A stretch of DNA of 24,378 bases from a virus. Both the position numbers and the translations under genes were made by a program. The DNA is taken from positions 1-24,378 of the IMG/VR virus record IMGVR_UViG_3300021368_001163; one strand, 5' to 3'. The notes beneath the pieces were generated by a model. That model was not told where the DNA came from. It did not search any database and worked only from the letters and a program-made list of their open reading frames with translations. The stretch's first letter is position 1; the number at the start of each line of letters is the position of its first letter. Below are positions 12,978-24,378 of the stretch, piece by piece.

Positions 12978-14746
12978 TACAGATTAAAGACCTAACAGTA
13001 AAAAACTTTATGAGTGTGGGTAATCAAACCCAGGCTGTAAATTTTAATCGCGAACAACTAACACTTGTGCTTGGTGAAAACTTAGACCAAGGAGGTGACG
13101 ACAGTGGGTCACGTAATGGTACTGGTAAAACAACAATAATTAATGCACTTTCTTATGCATTGTATGGACAAGCACTAACAAATATCAAACGCAACAACTT
13201 AATCAACAAAACTAACAGCAAAGGCATGTTAGTTACACTGCATTTTGAAAAGAATGGTGTAGATTATCGTATCGAACGCGGTAGATCGCCTAATGTTCTT
13301 AAGTTTTTTATTGATGAACACGAACAAGAGATGACTGACGAGTCACAAGGCGACAGTCGTAAAACACAAGAATCAATTAATGACTTGCTAGACATGAGTC
13401 ATGACATGTTTAAGCATATTGTTGCTCTAAATACCTATACTGAGCCGTTTTTAAGTATGCGTACTAATGATCAACGTGCTATTATTGAGCAGTTACTTGG
13501 TATAACTATACTTTCTGAAAAGGCCGAAGCACTAAAAGAACAAACACGTATTACGAAAGACGCAATAACAGAAGAAACTGCAAAAATCAATGCAATACAA
13601 ACAGCCAATAGTAAAATTGAAGGTACTATAGACAGTTTACGCAGTACGCAACGTGCATGGTTAGCCAAAAAACAACAAGACTGTGATAAACTAACCAAGG
13701 CAATCGATGAATTAGAGCATTTAGACATTGAAGTTGAGCTAGAATCTCATGAAAAATTGCAAAATTGGAACGAACATAATAATGCTATTTTGGCTCTTAA
13801 AAAGGAACAAAGCACTCTCGAGCCTGCACTACAACGTGCTAATAAGTCTTTGTTAAAAGTCACAAAAGACATCTCAGAATTGGAAGATGCTGTTTGTTAT
13901 ACATGCGGACAAGCATTACACGAAGACAAAAAAGCTGAGATTGTAGAGCGAAAACAAAAAGAATTAGAAGATGCACAGTCATACTTAGATGAAATTAGTG
14001 ATAAACTACAAGGTATCTTCCATGACTTACAGGAAATTGGTGATATTAACGGGCGTCCTACTACATTTTATGAAACTGCTAAAGAAGCATATCAGCATAG
14101 ACAAAATGTTGACAGCCTAAAACAATCTCTAAAGGCAAAACAGGACGAAGTAGATCCATATCAATCGCAGATTGATGAATTAAACGCAACAGCAATGCAG
14201 GAAATTGACTGGACGCCGGTAAACGACCTAACAACATTCAAAGAACATCAAGATTTCTTGTTTAAACTACTAACAAACAAAGATAGTTTTATACGTAAGA
14301 AGATTATTGATCAGAATCTTGCATATCTAAACAACAGACTAACATATTATCTTGATAAACTTGGATTACCGCACAGTGTTGTATTCCAAAACGATCTTGC
14401 TGTTGAAATTACACAGCTAGGGCAAGACTTAGACTTTGATAACTTGTCAAGAGGAGAACGTAATAGACTAATACTTGGTATGAGCTTTGCATTCCGTGAC
14501 GTTTGGGAAAGTCTATATCAAAAAATTAATCTATTGTTTATCGATGAGCTCATCGATAGCGGTATGGACACAGCTGGTGTAGAAAATTCACTAGGTGTTC
14601 TTAAGAAAATGGGTAGAGAAGGAGATAAAAATGTGTATCTTATCTCACACAAAGACGAACTAGTAGGAAGGGTCAACTATGTGATGCGAGTCATCAAAGA
14701 AAATGGCTTTACATCATATGAAAATGACATTGACATAGTAGAATGA
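12974..14746 (+). CDS. 46: Recombination ATPase subunit gp46 (Rad50/SbcC-like)
   Basis: This 590-aa protein is an SMC-type ATPase that partners gp47. Visible parts are the N-terminal beta strand MIQIKDLTVKNFMSVGNQTQ; a Walker A of the form NGTGKTT (about residue 49); two long coiled-coil arms rich in Lys/Glu/Gln (about 175-300 and 320-420); a zinc hook CYTCGQ (about 308-313); the ABC signature LSRGERNRL (about 490); Walker B LLFIDELIDSG (about 518); and the switch histidine in YLISHKDEL near the C-terminus. Arm length is that of phage gp46 (T4: 560 aa), far shorter than bacterial SbcC. All catalytic motifs are present, so it should be active. Its stop overlaps the hemC start (ATGA). Confidence 0.94.
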   Translation: MIQIKDLTVKNFMSVGNQTQAVNFNREQLTLVLGENLDQGGDDSGSRNGTGKTTIINALSYALYGQALTNIKRNNLINKTNSKGMLVTLHFEKNGVDYRIERGRSPNVLKFFIDEHEQEMTDESQGDSRKTQESINDLLDMSHDMFKHIVALNTYTEPFLSMRTNDQRAIIEQLLGITILSEKAEALKEQTRITKDAITEETAKINAIQTANSKIEGTIDSLRSTQRAWLAKKQQDCDKLTKAIDELEHLDIEVELESHEKLQNWNEHNNAILALKKEQSTLEPALQRANKSLLKVTKDISELEDAVCYTCGQALHEDKKAEIVERKQKELEDAQSYLDEISDKLQGIFHDLQEIGDINGRPTTFYETAKEAYQHRQNVDSLKQSLKAKQDEVDPYQSQIDELNATAMQEIDWTPVNDLTTFKEHQDFLFKLLTNKDSFIRKKIIDQNLAYLNNRLTYYLDKLGLPHSVVFQNDLAVEITQLGQDLDFDNLSRGERNRLILGMSFAFRDVWESLYQKINLLFIDELIDSGMDTAGVENSLGVLKKMGREGDKNVYLISHKDELVGRVNYVMRVIKENGFTSYENDIDIVE

Positions 14747-15486
14747 AACTAAGAATTGGTACAAGAGGAAGTAAACTAGCACTTGCGTATACAAAACAAG
14801 CATGTGACACTTTGTCTTGTGAAACAGAAATTGTGGAAATACAAACACAAGGTGATATAGATACCGAAACTCCTATATATGAAATGGGCGGTAAAGGTGT
14901 GTTTTGTAGTGCAATAGAAAAAGAACTGTTGGATGGTAATATTGATGTTGCTGTACATAGTCTTAAAGATATGCCGGGCTTGGAAACATCTGGCACACAA
15001 ATCACAGCAATGCTTAAACGTAATAGTCCTCACGATGTCATACTTGGAAAAGTAGGTTATGGTTGTACAATTGGTACTAGCAGTCCTCGACGCACTGCAC
15101 AATTAACAGACTTGTATAAAAATTTAGATATCAAAATAAAACCTATAAGAGGAAATATAGATACAAGAATAAAAAAACTTGACAACGGAGAATACGATGC
15201 TATAGTACTAGCTGAAGCTGGACTAAAAGCACTGGGTATTACTAGAACAACTATCAAGATACCTATTATTCCGGCTGTAGGACAAGGTATTATAGCATTA
15301 CAAACAAGATGTAATGATGAACAAACAATTGACATAGTAAAAAAGGCAAACGACAAGAAAACATATGCACAGGCAAAGATAGAAAGAGCATTACTAAAAG
15401 GATTAGGCGGAGATTGCCATACAAAACTAGCGGCACATGCTACTGGTTCTAATCCTATAACACTCAAGGCAATGTATTATGATTGA
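14743..15486 (+). CDS. hemC: Porphobilinogen deaminase HemC, C-terminally short
   Basis: HemC (hydroxymethylbilane synthase) joins four porphobilinogens into the linear tetrapyrrole precursor of haem, chlorophyll and cobalamin. The family signature is complete through domains 1 and 2: IGTRGSKLALA (5-15), GGKGVF (49-54), HSLKDMP (72-78, catalytic Asp76), GTSSPRRTAQL (111-121), RGNIDTR (136-142) and PAVGQGI (177-183). The cysteine that carries the dipyrromethane cofactor is Cys225 in GGDCHTK. The protein is 247 aa against about 310 for bacterial HemC; only 22 residues follow the cysteine, so most of domain 3 is missing. The stop overlaps the next gene by eight bases, and that gene is not a continuation of HemC. 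Its start overlaps gp46, so it is cotranscribed with recombination genes. It is probably an auxiliary metabolic gene; activity without full domain 3 is uncertain. Confidence 0.9.
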   Translation: MKLRIGTRGSKLALAYTKQACDTLSCETEIVEIQTQGDIDTETPIYEMGGKGVFCSAIEKELLDGNIDVAVHSLKDMPGLETSGTQITAMLKRNSPHDVILGKVGYGCTIGTSSPRRTAQLTDLYKNLDIKIKPIRGNIDTRIKKLDNGEYDAIVLAEAGLKALGITRTTIKIPIIPAVGQGIIALQTRCNDEQTIDIVKKANDKKTYAQAKIERALLKGLGGDCHTKLAAHATGSNPITLKAMYYD

Positions 15487-15694: not shown

Positions 15695-16132
15695 ATGTTC
15701 ATGCAATGGACGTACGAAGGTAAAGAAATAACTGAGATTCCTGACGGTGTAGAAGGATTTGTTTATCTTATTACCAATCTAACAAATAATAAAAAGTACG
15801 TAGGCAAAAAATTAGCTAAGTTCAAAACTACAAAGCCACCCCTCAAAGGCAAAAAAAATAAAAGACGTGGAACTAAGGAAAGTGACTGGAGAGACTATTG
15901 GGGATCTTCAGAGCATTTACTTCAGGACGTTGAAGAATTAGGCCCAAAAAACTTTACTAGAGAAATATTATATATGTGTCCAACCAGAGGCATTATGAGT
16001 TATCTAGAGGCAAAGGAACAGTTTGACCGTAGAGTGCTAGAGACAGATGAGTATTATAACGGGATTATTAATGTAAGGGTCGGCGGTTCCAAAGTTCTTA
16101 AAGAACACTTAGGCAAATTAAGCAACACATAA
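15695..16132 (+). CDS. GIY-YIG-type nuclease (Seg-like, free-standing)
   Basis: This 145-aa protein has the GIY-YIG nuclease core: GFVYLITNLTNNKKYVGKKL (about residues 20-40, with the paired tyrosines and the YVG), a Lys-rich segment KGKKNKRRGT, then DWRDYWGSSEHLLQDVEELG (about 66-86) and the Glu-bearing helix YLEAKEQFDRRVL (about 108-120), ending in NGIINVRVGGS. Proteins of this shape occur widely in T4-like phages and are annotated as Seg-like or putative homing endonucleases; no separate DNA-binding domain is visible, so it may not be a mobile homing enzyme. It is the last gene before the structured non-coding region at 16133, which could be a mobile RNA partner or simply a neighbour. Confidence 0.75.
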   Translation: MFMQWTYEGKEITEIPDGVEGFVYLITNLTNNKKYVGKKLAKFKTTKPPLKGKKNKRRGTKESDWRDYWGSSEHLLQDVEELGPKNFTREILYMCPTRGIMSYLEAKEQFDRRVLETDEYYNGIINVRVGGSKVLKEHLGKLSNT

Positions 16133-16607: not shown

Positions 16608-17978
16608 ATGAAGATTTATCAGATCACAGAAACATTGGATATTCAGAAAACCAAAGACGGAAAGTTTAAGGTAGTTGACTTAGATTCAAAAGGAACTCTT
16701 CAGACTTTTGATAATGCAGGTGATGCTGAAGAATTTAGAGATAAGAAACGTGCAGAGCTTGCTAACAAGCAAAAGCCTCCTGTAAAAAAAGATCCAGTGC
16801 AGAAGAAAAAGCCACCTGTACAGAAAAAATCTACAGTTGACAAAAAAGAACCTAGGATTGTTGATACACCAGCAAAAAAAGATCCTAATCCTAAAGGTGC
16901 CAAAAAACCATTAAACAAAGATATAAAAGCAGTTAGAGCTGATACACCATCGATGGACGAACTAAGTGAACGTGAACGTACAAGGCTTGCTAAGACTGGT
17001 AAAATAAGACGCAATGGTAAAACTTACACAAGAGCGGCAATTGAAACAGCTACTGAATTGAAAGCCCTAATGGTTGACAAAGCACCAAAAAAATTAAAAT
17101 CAATCGCAAAAGGTCCTAAAGCCGCACTAGATTTAGAAACATCTAAAAATTTCAAACTGAAAATTTTTAAATTTTTAGGACGAAAAGCCGCAGAGCAACT
17201 AGTTCTAATAGTTAACATGGCAGCAATTGACAATGCGTTAGATTCATATGCTCGTATCTGGGAAGAAGAAGTTGCAAAAGGAAAAACAAAGGAAGAACGT
17301 CAAAAACGCCTAGACGATATTCTAGCTAGTAAAAATAGAGCAGTTATCAAAGCACAGTTAGATGCTATAGAAGAAATAGCAAAAATAATTATAGGATCTA
17401 TTGCAGTTGCTCTAGCAGGAGGATTTGGTTCAGCGAAAGGAGCCGCCGCAGGAACTGCAACACAAATAGCTGTTAGAACCCTACTTCAATCTGTGTTTAC
17501 AAAATTAATGCTGGTCATAGGTGTTACTTCCGGTCTTATAGGTTGGATGGTTGCAATTATAGTAGGCGGCGCATTGATTTGGGGTGGACAAGCATTAATG
17601 ACAAGACTTCTTGATTATGTTGGTGCTCAAGATATGCTAGAAAGATGGTTAATGCCTTACTTAACACCTGCAAAATTGATGGATTGGGGTAATACAATGA
17701 ATTCAATGCAGACTATGGTGGCATTAGGAGCTGGAGCTGTTGGACTAGGAGTTGATACGGCTGTGGGTGCTGTAACATTAGGTAATGTAGATCCAGAGCT
17801 AGGACCTAAATTGTATCGTTCAGTTCAAGATGATCCTAGTGAATCAATGAATGAACAGGAAAAAATTGATTCGCAAAAACAAGCAGTGCAGGCTTTGTAT
17901 AAGAAATATCCTAAACTAGTTAAAAACTTCAAACAAGGTAAAGAAGAAGCAAAGAAAATAATGGCAAGTGTTACCTAA
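16608..17978 (+). CDS. Lys-rich protein with hydrophobic glycine-rich core, function unknown
   Basis: This 456-aa protein has three parts. Residues 1-55 look folded (MKIYQITETLDIQKTKDGKF). Residues about 55-135 are a low-complexity Lys/Pro linker with repeated KKDP and QKK motifs. Residues about 180-345 are helical, with a strongly hydrophobic, Gly/Ala-rich stretch at about 255-335 (KIIIGSIAVALAGGFGSAKG, then KLMLVIGVTSGLIGWMVAII), enough for two or three membrane-spanning helices. There is no signal peptide. The C-terminal 100 residues are mixed and end basic. A late-type promoter, AAGG ribosome site and position beside gp26 and the tape measure suggest a late virion protein, possibly packaged and inserted into the host membrane on infection. 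That role is inference. The stop overlaps the convergent gp26-extension stop. Confidence 0.75.
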   Translation: MKIYQITETLDIQKTKDGKFKVVDLDSKGTLQTFDNAGDAEEFRDKKRAELANKQKPPVKKDPVQKKKPPVQKKSTVDKKEPRIVDTPAKKDPNPKGAKKPLNKDIKAVRADTPSMDELSERERTRLAKTGKIRRNGKTYTRAAIETATELKALMVDKAPKKLKSIAKGPKAALDLETSKNFKLKIFKFLGRKAAEQLVLIVNMAAIDNALDSYARIWEEEVAKGKTKEERQKRLDDILASKNRAVIKAQLDAIEEIAKIIIGSIAVALAGGFGSAKGAAAGTATQIAVRTLLQSVFTKLMLVIGVTSGLIGWMVAIIVGGALIWGGQALMTRLLDYVGAQDMLERWLMPYLTPAKLMDWGNTMNSMQTMVALGAGAVGLGVDTAVGAVTLGNVDPELGPKLYRSVQDDPSESMNEQEKIDSQKQAVQALYKKYPKLVKNFKQGKEEAKKIMASVT

Positions 17979-18208
17979 AGCAAAGGTAATCTTGTTTTTT
18001 CGACAGTTTCAATATTGTCTTTGATAATTTTATTCAGTATTTCTAGATCTTCTGATGTAATTTTATACATCAAATCGTGATAACTAAAACTTCCTCGCAT
18101 ATACCAACCCAAGCGATACCTATCATCTTTGATACGTTTGATATCATTTTCAAATTCATTAGAAAGTTCTAAGAGATCAGATTCCTCGAGTGTAAGAATT
18201 TTAGACCG
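17975..18208 (-). CDS. -1 frame extension of gp26 (predicted frameshift fusion partner, 77 codons)
   Basis: In the -1 frame relative to gp26 the sequence is open from 18250 to a TAG at 17975-17977. Decoding from 18208 gives 77 residues: RSKILTLEESDLLELSNEFE, then a protein-like middle with RYRLGWYMRGSFSYHDLMYK, ending KIIKDNIETVEKTRLPLL. Codon use and charge pattern look like a real protein. There is no ATG, GTG or TTG in this frame before residue 33 (TTG at 18112) and no ATG before residue 37 (18100), so ordinary initiation would lose the first third. Together with the slippery heptamer this predicts a 353-aa fusion (276 residues of gp26 plus 77). By position it may correspond to T4 gene 51, which follows gene 26; I cannot show similarity. 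Alternatives are a non-canonical start such as ATT, or a 41-residue product from 18100. Confidence 0.65.
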   Translation of the reverse strand, partial: RSKILTLEESDLLELSNEFENDIKRIKDDRYRLGWYMRGSFSYHDLMYKITSEDLEILNKIIKDNIETVEKTRLPLL

Positions 18209-19035
18209 AAAAAACTCGCGTAATCCAAATCCACAGTTGTGCTGTATTGTTCATTGCACTCTTCGCCTCCGCATTGGACATCTACTGGAGGTACTTTCCA
18301 TTGATTAGCAAGTTCAAATATTTTTTCTTTCAACGCATTATAAAATTTTGAATCATTGTTTACAACAAATTCAGTTATAGATTCTAAATCAGTTTCTGAT
18401 TCTGTGCTGTTTGTAACTGATTTGATATAGGTAATTGCTGTTCGTAAATTTAAATCGCTGGTTTTGTTGTAAATGTCTTTGGTATGCTGTTGTTTTAGTT
18501 CATCAGCTAGATCGTTGTTTTGAGAAATTTGATAAAGTGTTCTTTCATACTGATAACTTTCTTGTGCAAAGTCGCTCATTTGTTTATACGTCAACGGCTT
18601 TAAATGAAATGTTAATTCGTCTATAGTAAAACTGTTTTCAGTTTCATAATCTGTATATCCGCCTAACATCTTGGTCATGCTAAGTACACTTTCGTTTTCG
18701 GCTGTGCATTTTGGACATTTCGTAGTCACAGGCATGTCGTCTCCATATGTTGCAATACGTATAGAAATTAGTATGTAATCTATATCAAATCCTACTAACT
18801 TCCATGGATCTAATATAGTAGGTATACAACTTTTTATAACTTGTACAGTTGCTTCACCACTGAACAACGCATCAGGTGTTTTGAACATGATTTCATCCAT
18901 TGCGTTCATTCCAAACACAGGAACTTGCATGTACTGACCGCCTTCTATGACAGTTTCGTCGTAGAAATTACCTTTACTTGGTAGGTCTATAAAAAGTTTA
19001 GGTTGTCTTTGATAATTTTGAAGAAAACTGCTCAT
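18169..19035 (-). CDS. 26: Baseplate hub assembly protein, gp26-like
   Basis: This 288-aa protein resembles the gp26-type baseplate protein of marine T4-like phages: FLQNYQRQPKLFIDLPSKGN at the start, VPVFGMNAMDEIMFKTPDAL (38-57) and SCIPTILDPWKLVGFDIDYI (69-88). Two cysteine pairs, CPKC (107-110) and C255/C260 in VQCGGEECNEQ, look like a split zinc ribbon. The zero-frame product ends 12 residues after the slippery site; a -1 shift there replaces this tail with 77 other residues. In T4, gp26 helps assemble the baseplate hub. The combination of zinc-ribbon protein, frameshift extension and neighbouring tape measure resembles the G/GT tail-assembly chaperone cassette of other tailed phages. It is transcribed divergently from the tape measure, with a late-type element upstream and a weak CGGAAAAA ribosome site. 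Confidence 0.78.
   Translation of the reverse strand: MSSFLQNYQRQPKLFIDLPSKGNFYDETVIEGGQYMQVPVFGMNAMDEIMFKTPDALFSGEATVQVIKSCIPTILDPWKLVGFDIDYILISIRIATYGDDMPVTTKCPKCTAENESVLSMTKMLGGYTDYETENSFTIDELTFHLKPLTYKQMSDFAQESYQYERTLYQISQNNDLADELKQQHTKDIYNKTSDLNLRTAITYIKSVTNSTESETDLESITEFVVNNDSKFYNALKEKIFELANQWKVPPVDVQCGGEECNEQYSTTVDLDYASFFGLKFLHSRNLIS
18208..18214 (-). promoter_or_regulatory. Slippery heptamer U UUU UUC (-1 frameshift site)
   Basis: The minus strand reads TTTTTTC in the gp26 frame as T TTT TTC (codons 275 and 276, both Phe), an exact X XXY YYZ heptamer. After a -1 slip the next codon is CGG at 18208 and the frame stays open for 77 codons. I see no clear stimulatory stem-loop directly downstream, and the nearest GGAGG is about 60 bases upstream, too far to act as the usual Shine-Dalgarno enhancer. 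Confidence 0.6.
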
Positions 19036-19109: not shown

Positions 19110-21116
19110 ATGCCTAATGATGAGGTAGTTCAGATAAGCCAACAAGAATTGACCAATTCAATTGTTGCGGCTTTAAAACAGGCAAAACTTGTCGGAACAA
19201 ATGAACAAAGAGGGCAAGGCGCTGACACTAGTATTACTTCTACTCGTAGTTTGAAAAAACTATCAGATGCAGGAGATCTTGCTGCCGAAATGTTTAAAAG
19301 CAACGGAGTTGCCGCTTCGCAAGTAACAGCAGGTTTCTTAGGCACAATTCCTGGACTAAAAGGTATAGGAAACGCGGCTAGCGGTGTTGTTGGATTTATA
19401 GAAGATACCCAAAGTGTGTTTAAGCAAATGAGTAAAGTAGGTGCTGGCTTCTACGGTGATTTAGGTGCTTTAAGAGCTGGTGCGGCACAGACAAGAATGA
19501 GTTTAGATCAATTTGGTAGCATAGTTGCCAATAACAGTGATAGACTTTTATCATTAGGAACAAGCGTAAACAAAGGCGCTATGAGATTTGCAGAGCTGTC
19601 ACGTACAATGTTTGAAGGTGATGTAGCACTAGGTATGATGAACCTTGGATACTCACTAGAAGAAGCAAATGAACTGCTAATGGATAATTCAACTTTGCTT
19701 GCACGTCAGCAAAGGATTAGTGGCATGAGCGACAAAGAAGTTACTCAAGCTACATTATCAATGGCTGAAAACCTTGCGATGATGGCAGATATATCTGGTA
19801 AAAACGCAAAAGCAGAAAAAGATAGAATGATTGATGCCGCCAGAGACGGTAAAAATCTTGCGGCAAATAGGCTTTTAGAAGCTAGAGGAATCAAAGATGC
19901 TACGCAGACGTTTAGCCAAATGCAAATTGGACTTGCGGCTCTAGGACCTGCCGCCCAAGCATTTTCAGCTGACTTGAATCAAACTGGTGTGCCGATGAGT
20001 AAAATGACCAAAGGTTTTGCGTCAATGGCTCCACAGACAGCAGATGTGATTCGCAGTATGCAAGCAGTTAGAGAATCCAATCTAACCACAGAAGAAAAGA
20101 CAAGACGTTTAAGAGAACTAGAAGCAAAAGCCATAGCCACATATGCGAAAGAAACAGGAAGTGCAACAAAACTACAAGTAGCAACAACAGGACAGATTAA
20201 TGAATATGGTGCTATGATGGCAGATATGTTGCAGAACTTTACGCCAACTTTAGAAGCAGTTGAACGCAAGATGCAAGAAGAAGGTGTTAGCAGAGAAGAA
20301 GCAACAAAACTATTGCGTGAAGAAGCAAAACAAAATCTAAAATCAATGCAACCAGGCGGTGGCACTCCAGGACAAGAATTAAACAACGCACTCAATCAAA
20401 CCACTATAACCCTAGCAAATATTGGATCAGGGTTGAATCAAACTGTTGCAGATATCATGGCAGGAAGCAAAGAATTCAGCACCGGTTTTAATAAAGCTGT
20501 AAATAGCCTTGGTGATATCACTACAAAAATTGGAAACGTTGCTGAAGATGTTATTGGAAATATTGGAGATAGAGATCAAGCTAATCAAAACAATCAAGGT
20601 CCTGTACAACAATTTACACCTTTGTTTACACCTATAAAGAAAAACGAACAAAATACTGTAAGTCAAAATCAATCGCAAAGTGTTGATCCTCAAGCAAATA
20701 TTGATGCATTATTAAATGAACAACAAAATAGATTTTTAGGAGGGCCAGTCAAAGCGTTCAAGCCATACTTAGTAGGTGAACAAGGACCAGAAACATTTAT
20801 GCCTAATATGGATGGTGCAATCATACCTAATATGAAAAACATGCTTAACAAAATGCCTGATATCGGTAAAGAAATGTCAAGCACAATGCAAAATTTTGCA
20901 AAACAAATGCAAACCACAGGAGTACCAATTACTGAAGAAGTTAGACAAGCATCAGCTCAAATGCAAGGAGGATCGGTAGAAGAAAAACTTGACATTCTGA
21001 ACCAAACCATGCTACAATTAGTTGGAATAAATAATATGCAGACACAAATTGGACAAAAACAAATTAAAGCCTTTAAGCATAGTGGCAACTTAATGGGCGG
21101 GATAGGTAGAGTATAA
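19110..21116 (+). CDS. Tape-measure-like tail protein
   Basis: This 668-aa protein is mostly helical, rich in Ala, Gln, Met and Asn, as expected for a tail-length ruler. Residues about 75-250 contain Gly/Ala-rich helices (AGFLGTIPGLKGIGNAASGV); residues about 330-415 are charged coiled-coil-like helices. At about 553-572 it has VGEQGPETFMPNMDGAIIPN, a pattern found near the C-terminus of many phage tape-measure proteins (VGE-GPE-F-P...G-I-PN). The last 60 residues form helices with EEKLDILNQTMLQL. In T4 this role belongs to gp29, but I cannot show gp29 similarity. It has its own late-type promoter, a GGAGAAAA site, and a one-base overlap with gp20 (TAATG). An alternative is another virion structural or neck protein. 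Confidence 0.7.
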   Translation: MPNDEVVQISQQELTNSIVAALKQAKLVGTNEQRGQGADTSITSTRSLKKLSDAGDLAAEMFKSNGVAASQVTAGFLGTIPGLKGIGNAASGVVGFIEDTQSVFKQMSKVGAGFYGDLGALRAGAAQTRMSLDQFGSIVANNSDRLLSLGTSVNKGAMRFAELSRTMFEGDVALGMMNLGYSLEEANELLMDNSTLLARQQRISGMSDKEVTQATLSMAENLAMMADISGKNAKAEKDRMIDAARDGKNLAANRLLEARGIKDATQTFSQMQIGLAALGPAAQAFSADLNQTGVPMSKMTKGFASMAPQTADVIRSMQAVRESNLTTEEKTRRLRELEAKAIATYAKETGSATKLQVATTGQINEYGAMMADMLQNFTPTLEAVERKMQEEGVSREEATKLLREEAKQNLKSMQPGGGTPGQELNNALNQTTITLANIGSGLNQTVADIMAGSKEFSTGFNKAVNSLGDITTKIGNVAEDVIGNIGDRDQANQNNQGPVQQFTPLFTPIKKNEQNTVSQNQSQSVDPQANIDALLNEQQNRFLGGPVKAFKPYLVGEQGPETFMPNMDGAIIPNMKNMLNKMPDIGKEMSSTMQNFAKQMQTTGVPITEEVRQASAQMQGGSVEEKLDILNQTMLQLVGINNMQTQIGQKQIKAFKHSGNLMGGIGRV

Positions 21117-24000: not shown

Positions 24001-24378
24001 ATGGCAGATCGCAATAAATTTGAAGAAATGCTTGAAAAACTCGTTAATGAGGATAAAGCAGGCGCAGAAGAGCTATTTCACGAAATAGTTGTAGAAAAAT
24101 CAAGAGATATTTACGAAGGATTACTAGAAGCTGATCTAGAAGTTGATGAAGCTGATGATGAAGAAACAACAGAAGCTACTGATGAAGAAGTAGATGAGTC
24201 AGATGACGAAGAAGTAGATGAGTCAGATGACGAAGAAGTTGACGAAGCATCAGACGATGAAGACGTTAAAGAAGACTTTGACCTAGATGAGTTTGAAGTT
24301 GAAGGTGATCCAGCAGACGACATGATGTCAGCTATGGAGCCAGAAGGTGGCGACATGGATATGGACATGGATATGGAC
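24001..24378 (+). CDS. Acidic prohead core / scaffold-like protein (partial, gp67/gp68 type)
   Basis: At least 126 residues are visible before the window ends. Residues 1-40 (FEEMLEKLVNEDKAGAEELF, then HEIVVEKSRDIYEGLLE) form an amphipathic helical start, resembling the N-terminus of T4-like prohead core proteins. From residue 45 on it is almost entirely Asp, Glu, Ser, Thr and Ala, with EEVDESDD repeats and a closing Met-Asp run. T4 places acidic core protein gp67 and gp68 right after gp20, and these fill the prohead before proteolysis by gp21. The match is by composition and order, so gp22-type scaffold remains possible. It has its own late-type promoter and a strong AGGAG site, consistent with high expression. 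Confidence 0.6.
   Translation, partial: MADRNKFEEMLEKLVNEDKAGAEELFHEIVVEKSRDIYEGLLEADLEVDEADDEETTEATDEEVDESDDEEVDESDDEEVDEASDDEDVKEDFDLDEFEVEGDPADDMMSAMEPEGGDMDMDMDMD
24184..24231 (+). repeat. Two perfect 24-bp tandem repeats in the acidic protein
   Basis: The 24-base unit at 24184-24207 is repeated exactly at 24208-24231, encoding EEVDESDD twice; a third, diverged copy follows from 24232. Exact identity at DNA level indicates recent duplication by slippage or recombination. Confidence 0.9.

Follow-up and report, generated by a model that had tools for sequence, protein, structure and literature searches.

The gp26-like gene described here very probably undergoes -1 programmed frameshifting and, as read from its sequence, would thereby specify a short and a long form of a tail assembly chaperone. 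It lies in an IMG/VR virus record of 24,378 bases, called the window below, which comes from a marine bacteriophage related to T4. The frameshift had been proposed in the first-pass annotation of this DNA, and the proposal is now supported by a slippery heptamer present in 55 of 55 lineages, by selection acting on the second reading frame and by the distribution of start codons. Slippage itself, its ratio and the chaperone role we infer; a function as chaperone of the tape-measure protein is suggested by the protein family and by what is known of T4 and lambda.

According to the proposed mechanism, most ribosomes would keep to the zero frame and terminate 12 codons past the T TTT TTC heptamer, releasing the short form. 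A fraction would slip back one base, the two tRNA-Phe on TTT TTC re-pairing on TTT TTT, and continue in the -1 frame, producing a long form extended by 77 helical residues. Lambda gpG/gpGT and P2 gpE/E+E′ are short and -1 extended forms of tail chaperones, and the gene studied here would work alike; the likeness is one of logic, and no sequence similarity is claimed. By analogy with gpG/gpGT, the short form would coat the tape-measure protein and the long form recruit it, in a ratio set by slippage, thus possibly helping tail tube and baseplate hub assembly.

T4-like chaperone genes have been identified before (Vladimirov, Gautam and Davidson 2022, Virology 566:9-15, as cited in passages of PMC10885494 and PMC12846349). 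The relevant passage of PMC12846349 cites the same work for poly-T -1 signals in such genes, and that of PMC10885494 reports other T4-like phages in which a short gene accompanies a fused long one. The T4-like chaperone work, as cited in the latter passage, is in line with the earlier suggestion that gp26 and its extension are the form that the G/GT cassette takes in the T4 branch. A frameshifted T4-like chaperone being already recognized, the window is mostly a further example, for which the case is solid. What is added here is breadth, coverage of jumbo phages, an argument from start codons and the finding that the window's clade, unlike others, has no stimulatory stem-loop.

Slippery site and overlapping frames

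The features of the locus are listed in Table 1. The heptamer conforms to the X XXY YYZ phase, in the context AG T TTT TTC GGT. Past it, the zero frame runs for 12 sense codons to a TAG at 18171-18169, while the -1 frame (FFRSKIL...LPLL) continues for 77 codons to a TAG at 17977-17975. The long form would thus comprise the gp26 residues through FF, followed by the -1 extension. Upstream, a stop lying 12 codons ahead of the heptamer closes the -1 frame, whose earliest start codon, TTG, occupies extension codon 35 (32 codons past the FF pair). The first-pass annotation had described several of these elements (an exact, in-phase heptamer twelve codons ahead of the zero-frame stop and a protein-like -1 frame, open for 77 codons, whose first 32 contain no ATG, GTG or TTG) and was accurate on all of them. 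As the window holds 17 copies of TTTTTTC, against 14 expected, the heptamer alone is ordinary and the case therefore depends on its position and conservation.

Table 1. Coordinates of the gp26 locus and of the divergent gene next to it
Feature	Position	Strand	Remarks
gp26-like gene, zero-frame (short) product	18169..19035	-	288 aa + stop; end = FFGLKFLHSRNLIS
Slippery heptamer T TTT TTC	18208..18214	-	in phase with gp26
Dual-coding overlap	18169..18207	-	zero-frame tail (12 codons + stop), GLKFLHSRNLIS; -1 frame also reads across
-1 frame extension	17975..18214	-	FF + 77 codons + stop; predicted all-helical; WYMRG motif
Divergent neighbour, candidate tape-measure protein	19110..21116	+	668 aa; followed by gp20 portal gene

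The gp26 product matches PF12322 (T4_baseplate) with an E value of 1.7e-13 and a score of 51.2 bits, above the curated cut-off of 24.5, and phrog_150 with an E value of 9e-13. The extension alone matches no Pfam family and no PHROG significantly; phrog_634, which holds cyanophage and T4 gp51, does not recognize it. AF2 models were built from alignments of IMG/VR loci only. They gave a pLDDT of 83 for gp26 and of 85 for the extension, with predicted helices at residues 11-38, 45-51 and 54-74. The best BFVD matches of the gp26 model are T4-like baseplate hub assembly proteins. Foldseek comparison of both models with the PDB returned nothing below an E value of 1, and no solved tail assembly chaperone was clearly matched in the PDB comparison: the match to YqbN (3klu), which we take to be a prophage chaperone homologue (Z 5.8, 84 residues, rmsd 3.1), falls inside the noise range like the other PDB matches.

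The neighbour of gp26 had been called a tape-measure-like gene beginning 75 bases away on the other strand. The distance and the strand are correct, and the gene is a plausible candidate for the tape-measure protein. The 668-aa product gives a profile match to the neighbour genes of jumbo phages (E 2.5e-16), and the RaK2 neighbour is annotated as “similar to tail tape measure protein”; hhalign found no link to T4 gp29 or to the neighbours in KVP40, S-PM2, Syn9 and phiM12. The portal gene beyond it matches PF07230 (3.6e-106). The neighbour gene is divergent in the window, as opposed to downstream in lambda and P2.

Elsewhere in the window, a hemC gene for porphobilinogen deaminase (14743-15486, + strand; PF01379 E 1.3e-63) matches the profile of the C-terminal domain over only about half its length. 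It is flanked by a gp46-like gene and by a gene for a SegE-like GIY-YIG endonuclease (15695-16132, + strand; PF19835 E 1.1e-34). Porphobilinogen deaminase has been reported in deep-ecotype pelagimyophages (PMC7029224). A very acidic, repetitive ORF (EEVDESDDEEVDESDD, MDMDMD) occupies 24001-24378 (+ strand) and continues past the window end.

Conservation, selection and start codons

A scan of IMG/VR produced 80 relatives. A few truncated loci were set aside together with L021, in which the gp26 frame (L021:3001-3821) breaks after about 28 codons and is intact thereafter, probably reflecting a sequencing error. Together with the named phages given below, the relatives collapse, at less than 90% identity, to 55 lineages with a median pair identity of 32%. 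The same in-phase TTTTTTC is found in every IMG/VR relative with a readable gene end, and in contigs that extend to the end of the -1 frame, this frame measures 77-79 codons. Among the non-redundant lineages, 52 of 55 have in-phase TTTTTTC and the remaining three (HTVC008M, Cr30 and phiM12) have TTTTTTT; in all, a -1 frame of 59-79 aa follows. The heptamer and the -1 frame occur in nine jumbo-phage genomes (Atu_ph07, PA5oct, Phosso, Munch, SCTP-2, 121Q, Vibrio 2.275.O, GAP32 and RaK2), and TTTTTTC is likewise present in KVP40 and in the cyanophages S-PM2, P-SSM2 and Syn9. Aligning related loci had been suggested at the outset as a check; in every usable relative the heptamer and the open -1 frame are conserved, and their loss, named then as counter-evidence, was seen in none.

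No second in-phase TTTTTTC exists in the 15,208 gp26 codons of the same 55 lineages. Given codon usage, log10 P for the 52 occurrences of TTTTTTC is about -52 if lineages are assumed to be independent, which they are not, so that this value is an upper bound on the strength of the evidence. The second Phe codon of the site is TTC in 52 of 55 lineages, though TTT is preferred for Phe in most of these genes. The C at position 7 may be held by both frames, since it doubles as the first base of a conserved Arg codon in the -1 frame.

A one-base difference would join the two frames, as might be expected if an assembly or sequencing error, or a broken gene, had interrupted what is truly one continuous frame. 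We give this explanation practically no credence. The relatives already refute it, since dozens of independent metagenome contigs, as well as finished genomes of isolates, show the same heptamer, stop and -1 frame; conservation extends to the zero-frame tail. In the window's clade this tail is maintained in both reading frames (FFG...L.SRNLI), and the zero-frame stop falls 11-14 codons past the heptamer, as against 0-6 in other clades (usually 1-6 in jumbo phages, with Munch, at 11, the exception).

Selection was assessed over the -1 frame beyond the zero-frame stop, for 21 lineages from the window's clade. The -1 frame has a pN/pS of 0.33 and contains no stops; the other two frames, with 102 and 202 stops, give 0.86 and 1.73, respectively. 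Purifying selection on the extension is confined to the -1 frame, and the entropies of its three codon positions are 0.66, 0.33 and 1.17. From the upstream -1 stop up to extension codon 35, 18 of the 21 lineages lack any ATG, GTG or TTG. Codons 18-34, which lie past the zero-frame stop, show a pN/pS of 0.40, versus 1.00 and 1.34 in the other frames. Because purifying selection acts where most lineages lack a start codon, codons 18-34 appear to be translated and to be reachable only by a shift. We regard these start-free codons as the strongest argument that the extension has no start of its own.

Such a start is implied by several GenBank records, where the -1 frame is annotated as a separate gene: S-PM2 gp51 (beginning with an ATG that immediately follows the gp26 stop), KVP40.0327, phiM12 gp120 and Syn9 gp13. 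The -1 frame would then be a short gp51 gene, on which ribosomes initiate internally, either at a ribosome site of its own or through coupling with the end of gp26 translation; many members of the window's clade do have an ATG at extension codon 39 (WYMRG). This ATG, however, sits within the conserved domain and is rarely accompanied by a Shine-Dalgarno match, whereas conservation and purifying selection set in directly past the heptamer, ahead of any start codon in most of the clade. Moreover, the annotated starts vary in position among phages but the heptamer does not. A conserved start codon with a ribosome site ahead of the conserved extension, which the first-pass annotation had named as evidence to the contrary, was not found, and we consider a separate gene very unlikely.

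Downstream RNA structure

Folding was evaluated over 45 nt starting 5 nt past the heptamer, against shuffled sequences. In the window's clade this segment is not more structured than the shuffles (mean z -0.02; window itself -0.1). A candidate hairpin right after the site in this clade showed no covariation and failed the covariation controls. Strong stem-loops at the usual distance are present in other clades (S-PM2, z -7.3; L041, -5.5; Cr30, -4.7; P-SSM2, -4.6; L056, -4.5; Atu_ph07, -3.6) and differ in sequence, as a stimulator free to turn over would. That of S-PM2 gp26 is a 14-bp hairpin directly 3′ of the slippery site. A possible Shine-Dalgarno-like stimulator (GGAGGG), about 9 nt upstream, was suggested by eye in some cyanophages and is absent in the window.

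The T run (six at the site; seven or eight in Cr30, phiM12 and HTVC008M), combined with the failure to detect an RNA stimulator in the window's clade, might suggest that the second frame is accessed by transcriptional rather than ribosomal slippage. Six T residues are nonetheless short for polymerase slippage, and the 52 lineages with C at position 7 do not carry a longer run, even if that C serves the conserved Arg codon too. The stem-loops of the other clades also speak for ribosomal shifting, and slippage by the polymerase seems to us highly improbable.

T4 gp26 and gp51 and the extent of the probable frameshift

T4 gp26 and gp51 are listed among the hub assembly chaperones (PMC3004832). 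The two proteins (208 and 249 aa) each match the full PF12322 model, as well as phrog_150. From this shared full-length match we conclude that they are paralogues; the idea that separate genes 26 and 51 are the split form of a single gene is thus not upheld. T4 gp26 ends shortly past its FF (EFFELL), like a short form, and gp51 runs on, like a long form. T4 has the family and the logic of a short and a long product in common with the window's gene, and seems to encode as two genes, on opposite strands, what its relatives make by frameshifting.

A comparison of the extension with the gp51 C-terminus had also been suggested. It gave weak hhalign matches (P 0.001-0.2), not significant for the window-clade extension alone, and the case for a link comes from position and from the adjoining chaperone domain. 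The extensions can be chained: that of the window's clade to jumbo phages (E 5e-20), jumbo to cyanophage extensions (P 0.001-0.005; 0.001 against cyanophage plus gp51) and cyanophage extension to T4 gp51 (P 3e-6). The jumbo phages RaK2, 121Q, Munch, GAP32, PA5oct and Atu_ph07 resemble the window in gp26, heptamer and -1 extension, and most also have a divergent large structural neighbour by the portal gene. Cyanophages, KVP40, phiM12 and Cr30 share with the window an in-phase TTTTTT[CT] at the gp26 end and an extension in the -1 frame. Unlike the window's, their extension is about 60 aa long and detectably similar to the T4 gp51 C-terminus. The records consulted for them show two genes, with differing “gp51” starts in the cyanophages, KVP40 and phiM12, and several have a strong downstream stem-loop.

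A small gp26 tree places KVP40, the cyanophages and T4 on one side and the window's clade with the jumbo phages on the other. As both sides carry the slippery site, it probably predates their split. The tree also joins T4 gp26 with gp51; both are long branches, so that this grouping may be an error of long-branch attraction and the timing of the duplication is unsure. To a broader scenario we assign an even chance: the gp26 frameshift would be ancestral to the T4 superfamily, jumbo branch included, recoding in T4 would have given way to a subsequent duplication that yielded genes 26 and 51, and the window's clade would shift without a downstream RNA structure, its conserved 12-codon dual-coding tail perhaps having a job of its own.

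The probable recoding event extends through much of the T4 superfamily, and many of the “gp51” genes annotated as standing alone probably encode the tails of fusion proteins, a wrong start having been assigned. The loci provide clear sites for testing how hub and tail assembly is set by the two forms of the chaperone, with T4, and its separate gp26 and gp51 genes, as a natural contrast.
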